64,000 nt of DNA from Diatrype stigma (Eukaryota; Ascomycota; Sordariomycetes; Xylariales; Diatrypaceae), in assembly GCA_022225965.2 (NCBI GenBank), contig JAKJXP020000021.1, positions 310,001 through 374,000 of the forward strand, written 5' to 3'. The notes beneath the pieces were generated by a model, which saw only the letters and a program-made list of their open reading frames with translations, did no database searches and had not been told where the DNA came from. Every line of letters starts with the position of its first letter. Position 1 is the first letter of the stretch. The translations under genes and the position numbers were made by a program. Shown here in pieces: positions 13,371 to 55,142 of this stretch.

Positions 13371-14746
13371 CAGGGACGGGAGTAGCGGAAGCAGCTGGCT
13401 ACCTAGACAGTCAGATCGACGAAATTTCGATGCTGAGGCAACTTCGTTTACAAGTTCAATGATCACTTGCTGCTAGGTTATCATTCTAGATATTTATTGT
13501 ACTTATATTATAAAGAGAACCAAGGTCGAAGGTCGAGTTTGTGTGTATGAATGGCCGTATACACATATACACGGATAGTACACGGATAGGTACCTAGCGT
13601 TTGTATGTAGTCGAATAGGAGAACGAAGTGACCCGATTCTCCCGTCGGAAATGTACTTGGCTGTCTACTTCGTATATCACGGAGTTCCCCGTTTCATCTG
13701 GCCCTTCTCATAACAACCGCAGGTGCGAGATAGTAAGAAAATTCGCACCTTCCCCGAATTATAGGAGCCGTATTTCATGATACAACCCCCACCTCTTTGG
13801 TTTGCTAGGTACCTAGGTACATACAGGGACCTTACTTAAGCTGGACCCTGCATGCGGCTAAGGTAAAGGTGGAATTGGTGGAATGCCCCTGACGCGAAAT
13901 AGTGAAACTTAATTGGCCAATAGAGCTCCGTCCAAAACCCCAACGCGGTAAAGTGGCATGTCAAAAGACTCCACCTTCCCTTCCCTTCCCTTTCCTCTCT
14001 CAAGTCGCGTGCAGGTTTTCACGTCACGAAAAATGGACAATGGCCACAATATTCCCGACGCTTGCTTGCGGATCGCGAATACATGCTCAGTCAGCTCATG
14101 GTATTCGCAGAGTGGCCCGGCCTGTTCCGCGAGAGAGATGGGACATTTGGGAACCCTCGGTGCTTATTCAACGTTCCTAATAGACAGCACACTGCTGGAA
14201 TAATATCGTACCTAGAATCACCCTTTCTTTTTTAGTGCCTCCATCCCTTTCCACGCGATACCTGGGCCTTCGCCTTCGCTTGGATTGCTTTCGTCCAACT
14301 AGTCGGGGTTTCTGGACACATAATGTGGAATGTAGTATCCGCCCCGTCGTTACTCGTCTACCGTCCTCGTCGATGAAGAATCAACCTGTATCCATAAGCA
14401 ACATGTTACACATACGTTGATACATTGACTAGTTGATCTCTGACATCTCCCGGTTCGCGCCCCCGGGTACCATCCACTCCACTCGTCCACTCGTGCTCGA
14501 ATCACCTACTCTGCCGTCGACCCCGCATTGGAAATCATTGATCGTTGGAAATATCCAAGGCTTACAGTAGTGGCCAATCTTGGGCATATAACGGAGCTCT
14601 GTACGTGTGGTGTGCCCTTATCTACCGAAAGCCTACTCTAATATAACCCTCTCCGTATATGTAGTACCTCTGGATGTAATACAACATGTATAGAGACACC
14701 CACTCTTTCGACGGACGACTTGGTTTATACCCGCCGACCTTCCAAT
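13371..14746. other. Intergenic, upstream of the methyltransferase
   Basis: About 1.4 kb with no supportable ORF. It holds pyrimidine-rich tracts near 13975-14000 and 14220-14260, as often found in fungal promoters and 5' leaders. Confidence 0.55.
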
Positions 14747-17700
14747 ATGCAGTCAATCAGCTCAGCGCCGCTCCTCTTCGACGAATCTGATACCTACGGT
14801 CTATTTAGTGATCTTGATAACCCCACGACACTAGGTGGGACCGAGTCCCGGAGCCTCAGTTTGCCCAGTGATTTAGAGCTTCTAAACAGTGAGGCAACCC
14901 TGGTTCCAGACTGGCCTGATACGGATGTTTTCGAGGACCCGATACCAAGCCAAGACTTCGAACACAGTCAAGAGCCGCCTATCTTGACCGAGCCCGTATC
15001 TACGTCCACAAATGTAGAGGTTCAGCTCCCTGTGTCGACTTTGACGCAGCCGAGGTCTTTATACTTCAATTTCGAGCCCCCTGCACCCGAGACTACCGAA
15101 CCAAGGGCTCTAGATGCTCTCGCCCAAGAATTGAAGCTACAGGACCCAATAGAAGGGGAAGATTTTATAGAATTCGTCCTGGACGACTTTTCTATATATA
15201 TCGATTCGGTTCAATACCCGAACGAGCTTAGACCTTTGCAGCATCTGAACAAAGCTGAACGATTCTACTTTGATGGCACGCTGTGTACTGGCAAGGCGAG
15301 ATTCTATCTGAGGCGGGTTCCCTTCCGTGAGCTCCCGATTGGGAACTATGGTGCGGACTACCATTCTGTCGGGGATCAGATTTGGATACGGTCTTTCCTG
15401 AATGAAAAGTTGAAAAAGGAGATATATTATAAACTAGGGTCCCCTTCAGTCGAATACACCAGGTTCCACGCACCCTTCTTGTGGGTTGCAAATCTCGCCA
15501 AACATGTCCTCGATTACTGTGCATATCTCCAGTCGAGCGGGCGTCGTGCTGTGTTACACGACTTCAAATCACGCTTCAGTATATGGCTTCTGCGGAAACA
15601 CAGGAAATCCAAAGCATTTCAGACATGGTATGATGCGCACGGAAGCGATGACTTCCGGGGTGCAATAGTCGCCAATGTTCTCTATATCTGGAGGGAAGCC
15701 TGTGGCGTGGATCGAAAAGGCGCCTCCTATCATCGCTTGTGGAAGGAGATAAACTCCCTTACTCAATACCGGCCTAACATTGGGTTTTCCAACGAGTCAC
15801 TGGGCGAAATTGACGAGGAAGCAGCGCCGAGACCGAGGAAGAAAGATGTCCAGCAGCATTATATTCCTCCGAAGACCACAGTCACGCCTTATATACACGA
15901 TCTATTCTCTCACATGAGCTTCGGCCAGATACTGGAGAAGGTAACGCCATCTCCTGATATCCAGAAACGCCGAACGGCAGTTATATTGAACGATGAATCA
16001 CGAAGCTTATCAGCCGCATCTCAAACATCTCACAAAAGACCCAATTCGGATTGGGAACGTTTCATTGCATCTATCCAACGTGGCGATGTGATTTCAACAC
16101 CGCCCGATGACGCGGAGAGGACCAAAACTACGTGGAAGCTGGAGACGTCAGTTCATCATGAGAATAAACATGTATGGTATGGTCTAGTACAGGACATTCA
16201 TCAAACGCCGAGAGGAAAGCACTCCTTTGATGTGATTTGGCTGTATCACCCTAGAGATACACCCTGCGCCAAAATGAAGTATCCGTGGAAAAATGAGCTC
16301 TTTCTGTCGGATAATTGCACCTGCCACAGCAATATGGCCACAGTGAAAGATGCCGACATCATCTCCACACATCAGGTGCATTGGTTTGGGAGTCCATCTA
16401 CCTCTGCGGAGTTCTTCGTGCGTCAAACGTATACGATCGACGAACAGCGATGGGTCACTCTTCAGGCAGCACACATGAAGTGCGCGGACAGGGATATGTC
16501 AATTAAGCAGGATAAATTCGAAGTTGGCGATGCGGTTCTTGTCCACACAAAGTCGAAATCCCTTGAGCTAGAGAATTTCGTGGTCGAATCCTTCTTTGAT
16601 GAGGGCGCAAAGAGATTTGTCCGTCTAAGAAAACTTCTGCGAAGAAGACTCGTCGACCCAAAAGCCTCGGGATCCCCACCAAACGAGCTCTTATACTCGG
16701 CGAGGCTCGTCGAGATCGAAGCGAGAAGTATTGCCCGACGGTGCCTCGTTAGAGTTTTTCGTCTTGACGAGAAAATCCCGGCTCCTTATGACCGCAATGG
16801 TATCGGTGATGCTTTCTTCATTACGCACCAGGAATTGGTCACGGAAGATGGCCAAGTCCAATATGTCCCTGCCAATATTGAATCCCTCGGCTCGTTACGG
16901 CAAGGCTTCAACCCAAGTCGCACTGTGCACTCTCAGAAACTCAAAGGTTTAGATTTGTTTTGTGGCGGTGGAAATTTCGGACGCGGTCTCGAGGATAGCA
17001 ACGCAATCGAGATGCGCTGGACCAACGACATCTGGAAAGAGGCCATTCATACTTACATGGCGAATGTCAAGCCAGACTCATGTACTCCCTTCCTAGGCTC
17101 TGTCGACGACTTGCTCCGCCATGCTTTACTGGGTGACGGAAAGGCACCTCGTCCCGGGGAGGTCCAGTTCATCTCCGGTGGCTCGCCTTGTCCAGGGTTC
17201 TCCTTACTGACAAACGACAAGACAACGGACAAGCAGCGAAAGAACCAATCACTCGTGGCTTCTTTCGCCTCTTATATCGACCTGTACCGCCCTCACTATG
17301 GTCTGCTTGAAAATGTCATTCAGATGGTGCAAGCAAAACATAATCGGGACGAGTGTGTCTTTTCCCAGCTCGTTAGCGCCGTTGTCGGACTAGGATACCA
17401 AACACAGATCCTATTCATGGACGCGTGGTCTTTTGGTGCACCACAGTCTCGGAGCCGCGTGTTCCTATTATTCACGGCACCGGGCCTCCGTGTACCCAAA
17501 ATCCCGGTGCCCACGCATTCGCACCCGCCCGGCATGGGGCTACGAAGGCTAGGATTGATGTCTAACGGCCAGTCCTTCAGCCAACGTGAGCGGCTGCCGA
17601 CACCTTTCAAATTCACCAGCGCGATGGAAGCCGTCAGCGACCTCCCGGACATACAGGATTCGAAGGCGGACTACTGCGTCGGGTTCCCCGACCACCGGCT

Positions 17701-18595
17701 CTCAATGGGGTACACGCCCATGCTGCGCAAGCAGGTGCAGCACATCCCAACGCAGCCGTGGGAGATGAACTTCAGCAAGGCCTACTACGGTGCCGGCGTC
17801 ATGGACGAGTCCACGCGGTGGCAGCTGTATCCCGCTAAGGAGAAGTCCCGCACCCAGGTCATCTCGCGCGGCTGGGGCCGCATCCACCCTCACGACTTGT
17901 TCCCCACCATCACAACGTCCTGTGGGCCCTCGGACGCCCGCATCGGCCAGATCAACCACTGGCACCAACCGCGGCCCATCACCATCCTCGAGGCCCGGCG
18001 CGCCCAGGGCTTCCTCGACACCGAGGTCATCCTCGGCTCGCCCCGTGATCAGTACCGCATCGTGGGCAACAGCGTCGCGCGCCAGGTGGCGCTGTCGCTC
18101 GGCCTCGCCATCCGCGAGGCCTGGTTCGGCACCTTGCTGGACGAGAAACCCATCCCTCAGAGGCAGACGGCGGCGGCAGTGGAATCCGTCGACAAGGTGA
18201 ACACTAGTTTCGATATTGGAACTCCTGACATCACCACCACTAGCATCGACACGGGACTCACCCCCCTTGCTACCGCTGCTGCCGATTTCCCAGTCGCCAT
18301 GGACTCGGCAAGTTCCACGGATGAGCTCACGAAAAGCTACACCGACGAACTCTGGTCACGCAACACCCCGCTTACCACGCCGGGCACCAGCGACATCAAC
18401 AGCGAACTAGCGGCGGCTGATTGTACCCCAAAAGCGGCAACATCAGCGCCTACGACGGTCCGCCGGAAGCGGTCGTCGACCCTGTACGTGGAGGTCGTCA
18501 ATAAGAAGCAGAGACATCAAACTGATGCTACCGCGAGGGATTCCGTGAGCTCGGCTCCGGATATTGGCGACGCTTTTCTTGGGCTTGGGAGCTGA
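14747..18595 (+). CDS. dim-2: DIM-2 type DNA (cytosine-5) methyltransferase
   Basis: A single exon of 1282 residues. The ATG at 14747 (MQSISSAPLLFDES) is the first in frame. The N-terminal 400 residues are acidic and poorly defined. Two BAH-like regions follow: about 470-570 (HVWYGLVQD, DVIWLYHPRDT, KYPWKNELFLSDNC) and about 590-710. The catalytic domain runs from about 730 to 1130 with motif I DLFCGGGNFGRGLE, motif IV GGSPCPGFS with the nucleophile near Cys815, motif VI LLENV (about 855), motif VIII QSRSRVF, motif IX ILEARRAQGF and motif X RIVGNSVARQVA. PCP in place of the usual PCQ is characteristic of the DIM-2 family. In Neurospora DIM-2 does all cytosine methylation, guided by H3K9me3 and HP1 to RIP-mutated repeats; the same role here is inferred. 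All catalytic motifs are intact. The C-terminal 150 residues are Ser/Thr-rich with a basic KRSSTLYVEVVNKKQR patch. Confidence 0.93.
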   Translation: MQSISSAPLLFDESDTYGLFSDLDNPTTLGGTESRSLSLPSDLELLNSEATLVPDWPDTDVFEDPIPSQDFEHSQEPPILTEPVSTSTNVEVQLPVSTLTQPRSLYFNFEPPAPETTEPRALDALAQELKLQDPIEGEDFIEFVLDDFSIYIDSVQYPNELRPLQHLNKAERFYFDGTLCTGKARFYLRRVPFRELPIGNYGADYHSVGDQIWIRSFLNEKLKKEIYYKLGSPSVEYTRFHAPFLWVANLAKHVLDYCAYLQSSGRRAVLHDFKSRFSIWLLRKHRKSKAFQTWYDAHGSDDFRGAIVANVLYIWREACGVDRKGASYHRLWKEINSLTQYRPNIGFSNESLGEIDEEAAPRPRKKDVQQHYIPPKTTVTPYIHDLFSHMSFGQILEKVTPSPDIQKRRTAVILNDESRSLSAASQTSHKRPNSDWERFIASIQRGDVISTPPDDAERTKTTWKLETSVHHENKHVWYGLVQDIHQTPRGKHSFDVIWLYHPRDTPCAKMKYPWKNELFLSDNCTCHSNMATVKDADIISTHQVHWFGSPSTSAEFFVRQTYTIDEQRWVTLQAAHMKCADRDMSIKQDKFEVGDAVLVHTKSKSLELENFVVESFFDEGAKRFVRLRKLLRRRLVDPKASGSPPNELLYSARLVEIEARSIARRCLVRVFRLDEKIPAPYDRNGIGDAFFITHQELVTEDGQVQYVPANIESLGSLRQGFNPSRTVHSQKLKGLDLFCGGGNFGRGLEDSNAIEMRWTNDIWKEAIHTYMANVKPDSCTPFLGSVDDLLRHALLGDGKAPRPGEVQFISGGSPCPGFSLLTNDKTTDKQRKNQSLVASFASYIDLYRPHYGLLENVIQMVQAKHNRDECVFSQLVSAVVGLGYQTQILFMDAWSFGAPQSRSRVFLLFTAPGLRVPKIPVPTHSHPPGMGLRRLGLMSNGQSFSQRERLPTPFKFTSAMEAVSDLPDIQDSKADYCVGFPDHRLSMGYTPMLRKQVQHIPTQPWEMNFSKAYYGAGVMDESTRWQLYPAKEKSRTQVISRGWGRIHPHDLFPTITTSCGPSDARIGQINHWHQPRPITILEARRAQGFLDTEVILGSPRDQYRIVGNSVARQVALSLGLAIREAWFGTLLDEKPIPQRQTAAAVESVDKVNTSFDIGTPDITTTSIDTGLTPLATAAADFPVAMDSASSTDELTKSYTDELWSRNTPLTTPGTSDINSELAAADCTPKAATSAPTTVRRKRSSTLYVEVVNKKQRHQTDATARDSVSSAPDIGDAFLGLGS

Positions 18596-29100: not shown

Positions 29101-29350
29101 CTCGACCGTGCCTGTGGTTGTGCGTGTGTGTGTATGCAGGTCGCAGTTGCACCGGCTCTTGATTGGATGTTAGCACCATCTCCGAACTCGGTAACGGCAA
29201 TCCAAATATCGAACAATTCAGCCTTGACCGTCTGGTGTTGCCGCTGCTGTTCTTGCTGTTGTTGCCGCTGTTACTGTTACTGTTGCTGCTGATCCTGCTG
29301 CTGCTGCTGTACCACACACACACCACACCACACGAAACAGCAACACAAGA
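26143..29350. other. Long intergenic region, no gene seen
   Basis: About 3.2 kb holding two divergent promoters. ORFs here are short and none resembles a known family. The stretch 29225-29310 is a CTG/TTG-rich tract within the probable 5' leader of the GH105 gene. Confidence 0.5.
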
Positions 29351-30736
29351 ATGCGACCGAACGCTCACCTGACCGCCGCGGTTACCGCCGCCGCTGCCGC
29401 CTGTTTCTTCACCGAGACAGCCGCGGGCAGCGTGGTAGCCAAGGCCGAGGTGTCTATGTCGAAATGGATGGCGTCGAGCATCATGTCCCGCAGACAGGGC
29501 ATCATGACCGGCAAGGGCGGCACCTCCGAGCTGCTGCAGGCCGGGATCACGCAGAAAGCCTTCCTCGCCCTTGTCGCCCAGTACCCCGACGCCGCCGACG
29601 TTGAGGCCTACATCGAGGAGAGCGCCGCGTCCGTCGTGCCGTACGTCTCGAACGCCTCGCATGCCGCGCTGTCGTACCCGATGGACCGGCTCTCCAACGG
29701 CATGGCCCTCCTTCAGCTATCCTCCCCCTCTCCCTCCAGCCCCGCCAACAGCACCGCCCAGGCCGCCTTCGCCCGCGCGGCCGACGCCCTGCGCCGGAGC
29801 ATCGACCTCAACCGCCGCAACCCCGAGGGCGGGCTCTGGTACTTCACGTACCCGCAGTGGAGCTACCTCGACGGCATGTACTCGCTGGCGCCCTTCTACA
29901 CGCTCTACACGGCCACCAAGACGGCGGCGGAGGCCGCCGCCGACCCCGCCGCCGCCGAGCTCGCCCTCGCCGACATGTACTACCAGGTCGACCTGCTGTG
30001 GCAGCGCACGCGCGACGCGGCGTCGGGCCTGCTCGCGCACGGGTACGACGCCTCGCGCACGGCGGTGTGGGCCGACCCCGCCACGGGCGCGAGCCCGCAC
30101 GTGTGGGACCGCGCGCTCGGCTGGTACCTGATGGCGCTGGTGGACACGGTGGAGCTGCTTGACGCCGCTTCCGCCGACGCCGCCGGCGCCGCCGGCGCGG
30201 TGTACTCGGGGCTGCTGGCGCAGAAGTTCCAGCAGCTGGCGCGCGCCGTGCTCGACGCGGCCGACCCGGCCTCGGGCGCCTGGTGGCAGGTCATGGACCG
30301 CCCCGGCGCCGACGGCAACTACATCGAGTCGAGCGGCAGCGCCATGTTCGCGTACGCGCTGCTCAAGGGCGCCCGCCTCGGCTACCTCGACTGCCCGGAC
30401 GCCGCCGTCGACGTCGCAACCCGCGCCCACGACTACCTGACCCGCACGTTCGTCGTGCACGAGTCCGAGAGCGTGCTGGGCTACAATGGCACGGTGTCGG
30501 TGTGTAGTTTGAACTCGACGGCTAGTTACGAGGTGAGTGGAATCTGCAATGCCCCAATTCATGACTTGACAGCCCTGATCGAGATATATGAATCTGTACC
30601 ATATCCCTGTTAGTGGTACTGACCACGCTAATGATCTGGATAGTATTACGTCACGCGGCCTATCGAGTACAATAACGTCCTCGGGTCTAACGCCTACATC
30701 CTCGCGTCGCTCGAGGTCGAGAGGTTACGGCAGTGA
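29351..30736 (+). CDS. Secreted GH105 unsaturated rhamnogalacturonyl hydrolase
   Basis: Two exons, 29351-30532 and 30644-30736, for 424 residues. The intron starts gtgagt and ends gatag. A signal peptide (MRPNAHLTAAVTAAAAACFF...) precedes an alpha/alpha-barrel. The GH105 (YteR-like) motif is clear at about residues 230-265: GLLAHGYDAS followed by AVWADPATGASPHVWDRALGWYLMALVDTVELL. The motifs GAWWQVMDRPGADGNYIESSGSAMFAYALLKGARLGYL also fit. The second exon supplies the usual C-terminus (YYVTRPIEYNNVLGSNAYIL), which would be lost if the intron were read through. The enzyme cleaves the unsaturated galacturonyl residue from rhamnogalacturonan I fragments made by lyases. It is the third rhamnogalacturonan/arabinan-related enzyme in this window. 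Coding sequence is extremely GC-rich in third positions. Confidence 0.9.
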
Positions 30737-40527: not shown

Positions 40528-40605
40528 CATGTATAAACAACGAAGTCGTCCTGGCTTATGTCTTGCGCCGGTGTTGTTTGTATGCTCGGACTCTTCGTCG
40601 CCAAG

Positions 40606-43149
40606 ATGCGTAGTCCCTGGTTCTTAGCCTTCCTCTCACTAGGGCTCGTCACCGCCGAAGATGGGCGAAACGCCTGGCTACGATACGCGCAATTGCCCGA
40701 CAACGTGCTCCGGCATGCCAGGGTTCCAAAAAGCATCATTGCTCTCAACAGCACTGAGACCAGCCCTGTCTTTACGGCTGGCCTAGAGTTGCAGAAGGGA
40801 ATCCGAGGTGTCACGGGCAAGACACCCGACCTGACACACGAGGGCTACAACAATCGCAATGGAAGTGGCTCAATTGTAGTTGGTACCGTCGAGGCTTACA
40901 CCGAAGCTGGGGGTGCATCTCAGATCCCCGAGCTGGATGAGGATGGATTTTGGTTCAGCACAGAGGGCGACAACGTCGAGATTGTCGGACAAAACGAGCG
41001 AGGTGCATTGTATGGTGCCTTCGAGTATCTCTCGATGATAGCTCAGGGAAACTTCACTGGGGTAGCTTACGCCACAAACCCCAGTGCTCCAATCCGCTGG
41101 GTAAATCAATGGGACAACCTCGACGGTACGATCGAGCGCGGCTACGCTGGGCTTTCCATCTTCTTCGAGAACAATGTCACTGTCTCCAACCTGACCCGTG
41201 TGACCGAGTACGCGCGCCTCCTATCATCCATCCGCATCAACGGCATTGTTATCAACAACGTCAACGCGAACCCCATACTTCTGACCCCCGAGAACTTGGC
41301 TGGGCTAGGGAACATCGCCGACGCAATGCGCCCATGGGGCGTCAAGGTCGGCATTTCACTTAATTTCGCATCGCCCCAGGACTTTGGCGGCTTAGATACG
41401 TTCGATCCCCTCGACCAGTCGGTCATCGCATGGTGGGCGGATATCACGAAGAAAGTCTACGAGAAAGTCCCGGACATGGCGGGCTACCTCATCAAGGCCA
41501 GCTCGGAGGGCCAGCCCGGCCCCCTAACGTATAACCGGACGCTGGCCGACGGCGCCAACCTGTTCGCCCGGGCCGTGCAGCCGTACGGCGGGATCGTCAT
41601 GTTCCGCGCGTTCGTCTACGACCACACGATCGCGTATGACAACTGGTACAACGACCGGGCCAACGCGGCCGTGGACTTCTTCCGGGACCTCGACGCCGAC
41701 TTCGACGACAACGTCGTGGTGCAGATCAAGTACGGCCCGATCGACTTCCAGGTGCGCGAGGCGCCGTCGCCGCTGTTCGCGCACCTGCGCCACACCGCGA
41801 CCGCCATGGAGCTGCAGGTCGCCCAGGAGTACCTCGGCCAGCAGTGCCACCTCGTCTACCTGCCGCCCCTGTGGCGGACCGTCCTCGACTTCGACCTGCG
41901 CGTCGACGGCCAGCAGTCCATCATCGGCGCCGACATCCTGACGGGCAAGACCTTCAACAAGAAGCTCAGCGGCTACGCCGGCGTCGTCAACGTCGGCCGC
42001 AACGCCACCTGGCTCGGCAGCCACCTGGCCATGTCGAACCTGTACGCGTTCGGGCGGCTGGCGTGGGACCCGGCGGCCGACAGCGCGGCGATGCTGCGCG
42101 ACTGGACGCGGCTGACCTTCGGCCCTTCCGACGACGAAGCGGTGCTCAACACCATCGAGAGCATGTCGATGGCGTCGTGGCCGGCCTACGAGAACTACAC
42201 GGGCAACCTGGGCGTGCAGACGCTGACGGACATCACGGGCCCGCACTACGGGCCGAACCCGCAGTCGCAGGACCACAACGGGTGGGGCCAGTGGACGCGC
42301 GCCGACGGCGAAGGCATCGGCATGGACCGGACCGTGCGCAACGGCACCGCCAACGCGGGCCAGTACCCGGCCGAGGTCGCCGCCGTCTTCGAGGACGTGG
42401 CCGCGACCCCGGACGACCTGCTGCTGTGGTTCCACCACGTGCCGTACACGCACCGCCTGCGGGGCGGCGAGGGCCCGACGGTCATCCAGCACTTCTACGA
42501 CGCGCACTACGCGGGGGCCGAGACCGTCGCGACGTTTCCGGCGCAGTGGGCCGCGCTGCGGGGCAAGATCGACGCGCAGCGCTACGAGGAGGTGCTGTTC
42601 CGGCTCGTGTACCAGGCCGGGCACGCGATCGTGTGGCGCGACGCCATCAGCGAGTTCTACCTCAACATGTCGGGGATCGCGGACGAGCGGGGGCGGGTGG
42701 GCCGCCCGCACCCGTGGCGCGTCGAGGCCGAGGACATGGAGCTCGACGGCTACCGCGTCACGGCGGTGACGCCGTTCGAGGCGGCGTCGGGCCTGCGCAT
42801 CGTGCAGACGGTGGACAACTCGACGGCGGCGCGGGTGCGCGCGCGCCTGCGGCAGTTCCCCGACGGCGTGTACGACGTCGCCGTCGCCTACTACGACCTG
42901 TACGAGGGCCGGGCGCGCTACGAGCTGTTCCTCAACGACCGCAGCCTCGGCGCCTGGGTCGGCGATCTCGAGGACCGCCTCGGGTACACCCTCACGCGCG
43001 GCATCGATGGCCACTCGGCCACGCGCGTCACGTTCCGCGATGTGCAGATCCGGAAGGGCGACGTGCTTCGGATCCAGACGCTGCCGGATGGGAGGGAGAC
43101 GGCGCCGCTAGACTATGTTGCGGTGCTGCCGCGGGGGGTGGTCGATTAA
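40606..43149 (+). CDS. aguA: Secreted GH67 alpha-glucuronidase
   Basis: A single exon of 847 residues from the ATG at 40606. An in-frame ATG at 40558 would put 16 extra residues before a clear signal peptide (MRSPWFLAFLSLGLVTA), so 40606 is preferred. Domain order matches GH67: an N-terminal alpha/beta domain with IVVGT, DGFWFSTEGDNVEIVGQNERGALYG; a central TIM barrel with IRWVNQWDNLDGTIERGYAG, IRINGIVINNVNA and KASSEGQPGP (Glu near residue 301, a hallmark of the family); then IVMFRAFVYDH, QIKYGPIDFQVREAPSPLFA, and a helical C-terminal domain with WHP-like and NGWGQWTRADGEGIGMDRT segments. The enzyme removes 4-O-methyl-glucuronic acid from the ends of xylo-oligosaccharides after xylanase action. 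Several N-glycosylation sequons agree with secretion. Length fits known fungal enzymes (about 840). Confidence 0.95.
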   Translation: MRSPWFLAFLSLGLVTAEDGRNAWLRYAQLPDNVLRHARVPKSIIALNSTETSPVFTAGLELQKGIRGVTGKTPDLTHEGYNNRNGSGSIVVGTVEAYTEAGGASQIPELDEDGFWFSTEGDNVEIVGQNERGALYGAFEYLSMIAQGNFTGVAYATNPSAPIRWVNQWDNLDGTIERGYAGLSIFFENNVTVSNLTRVTEYARLLSSIRINGIVINNVNANPILLTPENLAGLGNIADAMRPWGVKVGISLNFASPQDFGGLDTFDPLDQSVIAWWADITKKVYEKVPDMAGYLIKASSEGQPGPLTYNRTLADGANLFARAVQPYGGIVMFRAFVYDHTIAYDNWYNDRANAAVDFFRDLDADFDDNVVVQIKYGPIDFQVREAPSPLFAHLRHTATAMELQVAQEYLGQQCHLVYLPPLWRTVLDFDLRVDGQQSIIGADILTGKTFNKKLSGYAGVVNVGRNATWLGSHLAMSNLYAFGRLAWDPAADSAAMLRDWTRLTFGPSDDEAVLNTIESMSMASWPAYENYTGNLGVQTLTDITGPHYGPNPQSQDHNGWGQWTRADGEGIGMDRTVRNGTANAGQYPAEVAAVFEDVAATPDDLLLWFHHVPYTHRLRGGEGPTVIQHFYDAHYAGAETVATFPAQWAALRGKIDAQRYEEVLFRLVYQAGHAIVWRDAISEFYLNMSGIADERGRVGRPHPWRVEAEDMELDGYRVTAVTPFEAASGLRIVQTVDNSTAARVRARLRQFPDGVYDVAVAYYDLYEGRARYELFLNDRSLGAWVGDLEDRLGYTLTRGIDGHSATRVTFRDVQIRKGDVLRIQTLPDGRETAPLDYVAVLPRGVVD

Positions 43150-53118: not shown

Positions 53119-53618
53119 TCACACCAGCCCATAGTCTTCCTTGATCAAGTCCGCCGCCCTCTCCGCAAACGCATACACCGTCGCCTGCAAGTTCGCCGTG
53201 CTGATCAGCGGCACCGCGCACGTCCCGCCCGGGTGCCACATGGAGATAGCGCTCGTGCGGACGTACCGCCTCGCGGCGTCGAGGTCCGCCAGGTGCGACG
53301 CTGCCGGGTCCCGACGCCGCCGCGGTTCCTTGAGGATTCCGTGTGCGGTGTCGGTGAAGGCGGGCGAGGACGCGACCGTCGCGTCCAGGTGCCGCATGTG
53401 CCGCGCGAACACCTCCACGTCGACCGGGTGCGACAGGTACCGCGGGTCGATGGCCGGCGGTGTTGTTGGGTTGCGTGATTGGATGTGCACGCTGCCGCGC
53501 GACAGCGGCTGCGAGAGCATGCCGCCGAAGGACACGAACTTCTCGGGCACGGGGCCCGCGTAGGGCGCGGAGGCGGCGCTGTCCGGGTCCACGGGCACGA
53601 CCTGCTGCGCGAGCGCGG
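53119..53618 (-). pseudogene. GMC oxidoreductase, C-terminal fragment
   Basis: The minus strand encodes the last third of a glucose-methanol-choline (GMC) family FAD oxidoreductase: ALAQQVVPVDPDS, GPVPEKFVSFGGMLSQPLSRGSVHI (substrate-binding region), then SMWHPGGTCA with the active-site histidine, and LISTANLQATVYAFAERAADLIKE at the C-terminus. Between GTCAV and PLISTAN the usual stretch (VVD..LRV.G...LRVVDAS) of about 26-30 residues is absent, with no intron to explain it. The fragment has no start codon of its own; upstream in its sense it runs into the inverted middle part at 53614-53618. It is part of the same original gene as the two neighbouring fragments. Confidence 0.85.
53614..53618. 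repeat. Left inversion breakpoint repeat CGCGG
   Basis: CGCGG on the plus strand, the inverted partner of CCGCG at 55082-55086. The join between the C-terminal fragment and the inverted segment falls exactly here. Confidence 0.75.
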
Positions 53619-55081
53619 CCACGCGCCTCTCCGAAGACCCGAGCCAGCGCATCCTCGTCCTGGAAGCCGGCGTGGACCATAGCGAGAACCCGCTGGTCAA
53701 CACTCCTGGTCTGTTCCAAGCGCTACTAGGGTCTGACGCTGACTGGAGCTTCCACACCGAACCTCAGGTAAATAAGCCGTTGGCCTAGGCTGAGTCGTTT
53801 CTTATTCCCCCCTCGTTGCCCTCCCCATGAAATTTGGGATGGTTAGAGTTGGACGTAGCTGACAAAAGAGCCATAATTGAAAGGAGGGTCTTGAAGGCCG
53901 GACCGTGGCCCTGAGCCAGGGCAAGGCAATCGGCGGTTCCAGCGCCATCAACGCGCATGTCTTCGTGCCTCCGGCCAAGAGCCTGATCGATGTGTGGGAG
54001 GAGCTCGGGAACGAGGGCTGGGGCTGGGACGTCATGCAGAAGTACTTCGCCAAGGCTTACACTTCGCCGCCGCTAGTGTCGTCATCATCAAAAATGGGCT
54101 CGACGGCGGCGGCGGCGGGCGACGACAACGACAACGGAAAGGAGAACCTCATGGAGAAGATGCTCGGAATCGACGGCTGGGCTGCGAGAAACGACGCGGC
54201 GAAGGGCCCGATCAAAACATCGTTCGCCGGCAACCCAGCCCATCCTATCCGCCAGGCCTGGGCGGAAGCCTTCGCGGCTAGGGGTCGGTCCATGGCGAAC
54301 GACCCGTTCCTCCACGGCACCGTGGGCAGCTTCAGCGCCCTGTCCAGCATCCACCCCGAGACCAAGGCGCGGAGCTACGCCGGCTCGGCGTACTACCACC
54401 CCATCAAAGAGCGCGCGAACCTATGCGTCCTCCAGAACGCCGCGGTCGAGCGGATTCTCTTCGACACCAACAATAGCAGCAAGCCCCCGCGCGCCACCGG
54501 GGTCCAGTACAAGCACGGCGGTGACGAGGCGAAGACGGCCGCGGCATCCAAGGAGGTGCTCCTCGCGGCGGGGGTGCTGCAGTCGCCCAAGATCCTCGAG
54601 CTGTCGGGGATCGGAGACGGCGAGCTCCTGCGCCGGCACGGGGTCGAGGCCGTGGTCGCGGACCTGCCGGCCGTCGGCGAGAACCTGCACGACCACCTGG
54701 TCTGCTACATCGGCTACGAGGCGGCCGACGGGATGGACACGCTCGACGCGCTGATCCGCCGGGAGCCCGAGGCGATCGGGCGCGCCATGCGCGAGTACGC
54801 CGCCGCGACGCCCCCGGGCGGCATGCTGACCTCCGTCGGCGTGTACACGTACGCGTACCTGTCGCTGATGGATTACTGCGCCGAAACCGAAGGCGAAGGC
54901 GATGCGGAAGGCGGACAAGAGGGCCGGGAGTTCCTGCGAGATCTGCTCCGGCAGCACCGCCCGTCGGATGGAGATGGAGATGGGGATACAGACTCCACAT
55001 CCAAAGCCAGGGCCCGAGCGTACTACGACATCGCCGAGAAGACGCTCCTAAGCCCGTCCGAACCCTCAGGCGCGTACCTCA

Positions 55082-55086
55082 CCGCG
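55082..55086. repeat. Right inversion breakpoint repeat CCGCG
   Basis: CCGCG on the plus strand, the inverted partner of CGCGG at 53614-53618. The join between the inverted segment and the N-terminal fragment falls here. Confidence 0.75.
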
Positions 55087-55142
55087 ACGAGTCCGGCCGT
55101 GCCTCCCCCTACGATTATGAAGTCATAAGACGTCGTAGCCAT
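55082..55142 (-). pseudogene. GMC oxidoreductase, N-terminal fragment (first 20 codons)
   Basis: The minus strand from the ATG at 55142 reads MATTSYDFIIVGGGTAGLVA and then breaks. This is the start of a GMC oxidoreductase with the Rossmann FAD-binding motif GGGTAG. It is exactly the part missing from the inverted segment beside it. Joining 55142-55082, the plus-strand segment 53619-55081 (without its intron) and the minus-strand 53618-53119 gives 1905 coding bases, a multiple of three, with no internal stop. The promoter side of this fragment (right of 55142) may still be active. Confidence 0.85.

Follow-up and report, generated by a model that had tools for sequence, protein, structure and literature searches.

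At positions 53119-55142 of the window, by which we mean the whole stretch of 64,000 nucleotides from Diatrype stigma (contig JAKJXP020000021.1, positions 310001-374000) that was analysed, lies a GMC oxidoreductase gene whose two ends read on the minus strand and whose middle segment reads on the plus strand (Table 1). The gene is related to enzymes of the aryl-alcohol and glucose oxidase type from fungi. An internal inversion of 1.46 kb had been proposed here by a sequence-only reading, and our analysis confirmed it as regards strands, coordinates and joints. The short N-terminal piece carries what we take to be the dinucleotide-binding motif of GMC oxidoreductases, and the middle piece matches PF00732 (Pfam, E 3.8e-32); both are present, on opposite strands. 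The match of the C-terminal piece to PF05199 (55.3 bits) exceeds the cut-off of the family, yet it covers no more than profile positions 1-93 of 139. A working GMC gene calls for a single continuous coding sequence on one strand and for a complete PF05199 domain at the C-terminus; at this locus the coding sequence is divided between the two strands and the C-terminal domain is incomplete.

Other parts of the window hold ORFs with enzyme domains. A large plus-strand ORF at 14642-18592 has C-5 cytosine DNA methylase, BAH and DUF7893 domains and is, we presume, possibly a DIM-2-like methyltransferase. Another plus-strand ORF, at 40537-43146, contains all three GH67 (alpha-glucuronidase) domains, and a GH88 ORF is found at 29228-30610. 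The Rfam search gave no match at gathering thresholds.

Table 1. Features of the inverted GMC oxidoreductase gene, in window positions
Feature	Position	Strand	Remarks
N-terminal piece	55082..55142	-	ATG, 20 codons that include the dinucleotide-binding (FAD) motif, and 1 nt that opens the joint codon
Inverted middle, PF00732	53619..55081	+	Exons 53619-53767 and 53884-55081; profile match, tblastn and placement on the alignment
Intron, 116 nt, GT...AG	53768..53883	+	Inside the inverted segment; exon joint agrees with homologues residue by residue
C-terminal piece, PF05199	53119..53618	-	2 nt, 165 codons and stop
Left breakpoint, arm CGCGG of the 5-bp inverted repeat	53614..53618	+	
Right breakpoint, arm CCGCG of the 5-bp inverted repeat	55082..55086	+	
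Joint of the in-frame deletion (29 residues; 87 nt when set against homologues)	53201..53224	-	84 homologues and 67 fragments
ORF of the 419-aa protein SLS62_003674 (P0001)	53827..55128	+	Consists of the middle piece alone; start position set from the first residues of the protein
ORF encoding P0121 (177 aa)	53119..53652	-	C-terminal piece, with residues added by antisense reading of the inverted segment

That the pieces belong to one gene is evident from their comparison with intact relatives. Three intact homologues (P0004, P0061 and P0009) match the region on both strands in the expected order in tblastn; in the case of P0004, residues 2-17, 11-68, 71-424 and 422-605 are matched in the order N-terminal piece (minus), middle (plus) and C-terminal piece (minus). 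For a closer view of the joints, we placed the four coding pieces (N-terminal, two middle exons and C-terminal) separately on an alignment of 84 homologues, namely those of at least 585 aa among the best 120 of 1321 matches, P0001 and the 35 shorter proteins being set aside. The N-terminal piece sits on alignment columns 28-57. At each joint a single column separates the adjoining pieces, and this column corresponds to the codon split by the joint, so no residue is lost or gained at either of them. With the one intron removed, the pieces add up to 636 codons (633 whole ones, 2 split by the joints, and the stop), which encode 635 residues. The count of 635 codons including the stop, given in the sequence-only reading, was thus one too low. 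As far as chance is concerned, the strand switch within one gene is beyond doubt. The middle piece also contains, within 53881-55128, low-complexity insertions that occur in neither the compared paralogues nor the compared homologues.

The inverted homology common to the two breakpoints is exactly 5 bp. It had been argued that a double coincidence of repeat and reading frame could hardly arise by chance. The frame match, however, adds nothing, because any inversion inside an intact gene would give it, and it therefore does not count as a second coincidence. As for the repeat, it is real, but as evidence on its own it is weak: when 81,387 breakpoint pairs were drawn at random within the gene, 0.8% of them shared at least 5 bp (0.7% for pairs near the actual ends), and CGCGG is present within the gene 12 times on the plus strand and 11 times on the minus strand (23 in total). 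Since the motif is so frequent, only its position is telling, and this position fits an inversion sealed by microhomology. Among the 25 longest of 332 inverted repeats, we found no longer repeat pairing the two ends. An 8-bp match just inside the ends was considered as a crossover and rejected, as it is 4 nt out of register and would shift the frame. The 5-bp repeats also sit within a weak inverted similarity with gaps that spans some 38 columns (P 0.7-1.5%), on which we did not rely.

A second lesion, which the sequence-only reading had not reported, is located in the C-terminal piece. The window copy has no residue at a place where 82 of the 84 long homologues have 29, one homologue 54 and another 12. 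The same place is spanned by 67 of 71 further C-terminal fragments (the other four do not reach across it), with 29 residues in 63 of these 67 and 24 in the remaining four. The missing block is positioned between the last conserved block and a motif containing a histidine that we take to be the first active-site histidine. In alignments to the intact homologue P0004, the 29-residue block is aligned in the three solved GMC enzymes compared, including 4ynt, and presumably it touches FAD. Judging by this conservation, a protein without the block is very unlikely to work in either orientation of the middle segment. In other words, the enzyme is probably dead whichever way the middle is turned. It is possible that the inversion and the deletion were one complex event. 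The breakpoint 5-mer CGCGG is also seen at the deletion joint (53214-53218); given how often it recurs within the gene, this may be chance.

Apart from these two lesions, the gene looks well preserved. The alignment of the 84 homologues has 126 columns with conservation of 95% or more. At 17 of these the window copy is unmatched: 12 fall in the deletion, one is a joint codon and four are substitutions, two of them conservative. The mismatch at the joint-codon column results from trimming in the placement, and the split codon does encode the conserved residue. For comparison, 79 of the 84 homologues miss between 0 and 5 conserved columns. There is no inner stop in the 633 whole codons, and under free drift the number of stops expected (on 632 codons) would reach three at 0.05-0.06 substitutions per site, an age bound that holds to the extent that free drift does. 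The remaining sequence thus keeps signs of past constraint, with open frames and few changes at conserved columns. The two disrupting lesions themselves are not found in homologues, as judged for the inversion against the three intact homologues and for the 29-residue loss against the 84 homologues and 67 fragments. Because of the few changes at conserved columns and the lack of inner stops, both lesions look young, and the earlier suggestion of a recent event is borne out in that the gene is apparently a young casualty. Among the best 120 of 1321 protein matches there is no close orthologue, the next match being a 61% identical paralogue from the same genome. Consequently, the ancestral state has to be read from distant homologues.

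The open frames might also be taken to mean that each of the two ORFs left by the inversion is a functional gene in its own right, representing either a split enzyme or new proteins. Both indeed occur as predicted database proteins on diverging strands, one of 419 aa on the plus strand, named by NCBI, and one of 177 aa on the minus strand, and neither part is interrupted by inner stops. The former (SLS62_003674, Diatrype stigma, 100%) is also the protein that matches the middle piece best. However, the N-terminal FAD-binding start is severed from both, and the C-terminal part is without a conserved block. We therefore regard two functional genes as very improbable, even if some product might still be made from the annotated 419-aa plus-strand piece. 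This also carries a warning for annotation: the annotated 419-aa protein and the listed 177-aa protein are pieces of one broken gene.

All of these observations come from one isolate and one short-read assembly, and the assembler itself has to be considered. When scaffolding, SPAdes can fuse neighbouring graph edges across short overlaps, and for this reason we keep a small share of probability for an artefact, in which the 1.46-kb segment would have been turned the wrong way during the joining of short-read pieces, the true gene being continuous. The GC content of the gene is high (66%), and the assembly is a SPAdes product from Illumina reads only. According to the available excerpt of the genome report (PMC12217926), D. 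stigma M11/M66-122 was sequenced by Illumina NovaSeq (2x150) to a coverage of 145.9x and assembled with SPAdes 3.12 (k 21 to 117) into 420 contigs totalling 49.15 Mb; the same excerpt presents this as the sole assembly for the genus, in the words of its authors. At a depth of 146x and with k from 21 to 117, however, a repeat of 5 bp should not confuse the graph. The window does not contain a single N, and no residue is lost or gained at the joints, which would not be expected of a misplaced contig. Nor would a misorientation explain the 29 missing residues. Taken together, we consider an assembly error unlikely, and it appears to be the better assumption that the isolate really carries the inversion.

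Strand switches are, moreover, uncommon in this assembly, which also speaks against an artefact. The genome yielded 49 GMC clusters. In 47 of them all pieces fall on one strand, 45 having both domains in the order expected and two having a single domain; only two clusters are of mixed strand, namely the inverted gene and the C58 cluster. The latter (C58:221088-224659) consists of decayed GMC pieces on opposite strands flanking an O-methyltransferase ORF; it has stops and is an old relic. Scoring 92 of 316 P450 candidates yielded 90 clusters, 20 of them with multiple hits and one (C9) mixed. C9 was rejected as an internal inversion, since its two P450 matches overlap in profile range and accordingly represent two genes. 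The scan of sugar transporters scored 9 of 336 candidates and was excluded from the strand control. We thus rejected a genome-wide habit of internal inversions, mixed strands being seen in two of 49 GMC clusters and in one of 20 multi-hit P450 clusters, that one being the pair of genes. A separate observation concerns the paralogue P0002 (534 aa; C12:100517-102404): its annotated start lies inside the gene, with an N-terminal coding stretch upstream, and by this comparison the annotated protein looks truncated.

It is tempting to see in such exact, conservative joints the trace of a programmed or phase-variable inversion, a segment whose repeated flipping would switch the enzyme between active and inactive states. 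The 5-bp inverted repeats lie inside the weak gapped inverted similarity mentioned above, and there is a fungal precedent, the inversion at the MAT locus of Sclerotinia (PMC3574095, as far as the available excerpt goes). If this were the case, the locus would be a phase-variable metabolic enzyme gene with about 5 bp of inverted homology and with both orientations present among nuclei or isolates, and it would matter far more. The evidence speaks against it. The repeats measure 5 bp as against the identical 250-bp repeats that the excerpt on Sclerotinia describes (PMC3574095), and none of the 25 longest of 332 inverted repeats pairs the two ends, where a switch would have long identical inverted repeats or recombinase sites. 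A Pfam scan of 16 of the 35 window ORFs of at least 220 aa matched no recombinase family. In the 224 contigs searched (48.98 Mb, compared with 420 contigs published, so that another copy on a short contig may be missed), the locus was found once and in one orientation, and there was no second or opposite-orientation copy. The 29-residue block is missing in either orientation, so that a working enzyme would be expected from neither, which argues against a reversible switch. The suggestion of reversibility, raised as one option beside a recent event and an assembly artefact, is not supported, given the short repeats, the lack of a recombinase match in the ORFs scanned and the missing residues. 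We hold a switch of this kind to be extremely improbable, and the idea of a phase-variable enzyme gene hardly deserves more credit.

Based on these considerations, the locus is probably a young pseudogene, derived from a GMC oxidoreductase gene of Diatrype stigma by a precise microhomology inversion and a deletion. The middle 1463 bp would have been inverted conservatively and sealed at the 5 bp of inverted microhomology, without loss or gain of a base. Most likely, after two breaks or a template switch, the 5-bp match would have served to join the flipped fragment. Near the 3' end, 29 codons would have been lost in frame as a second change, which may have come before or after the inversion. 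Both lesions are probably recent and inactivating, and the pieces would remain open frames because little time has passed since inactivation. If the joints hold in the reads, the pseudogene would provide a clean, young case of fungal gene death by inversion, with breakpoints readable to the base. Its anatomy is striking; its kind is ordinary.

The closest points of reference are the intact GMC paralogues in the same genome (on C12 and C28), which share with the inverted gene its family and block order. They also have a coding break at the same N-terminal place, which looks like the same intron. Unlike the inverted gene, both paralogues keep to one strand throughout and have the full 29-residue block. 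Among fungal systems, the MAT locus of Sclerotinia sclerotiorum is similar in that a kilobase-sized inversion truncates a gene; as the available excerpt of that study has it, 3.6 kb flip there between identical 250-bp repeats and the two orientations segregate 1:1 (PMC3574095). In contrast, the D. stigma gene has 5-bp repeats and one known orientation. A limited literature search found nothing pertinent on inversions inside fungal genes. Pseudogenes created when a small segment within a gene is inverted, with microhomology at its breakpoints, are a known kind. The D. stigma gene resembles them in its clean within-gene inversion, in the few base pairs of inverted homology, in the further small deletion and in pieces that are still recognisable. 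It differs from them in the single-base precision of both joints and in frames that are all still open, a state that may be unusually fresh for pseudogenes of this kind.
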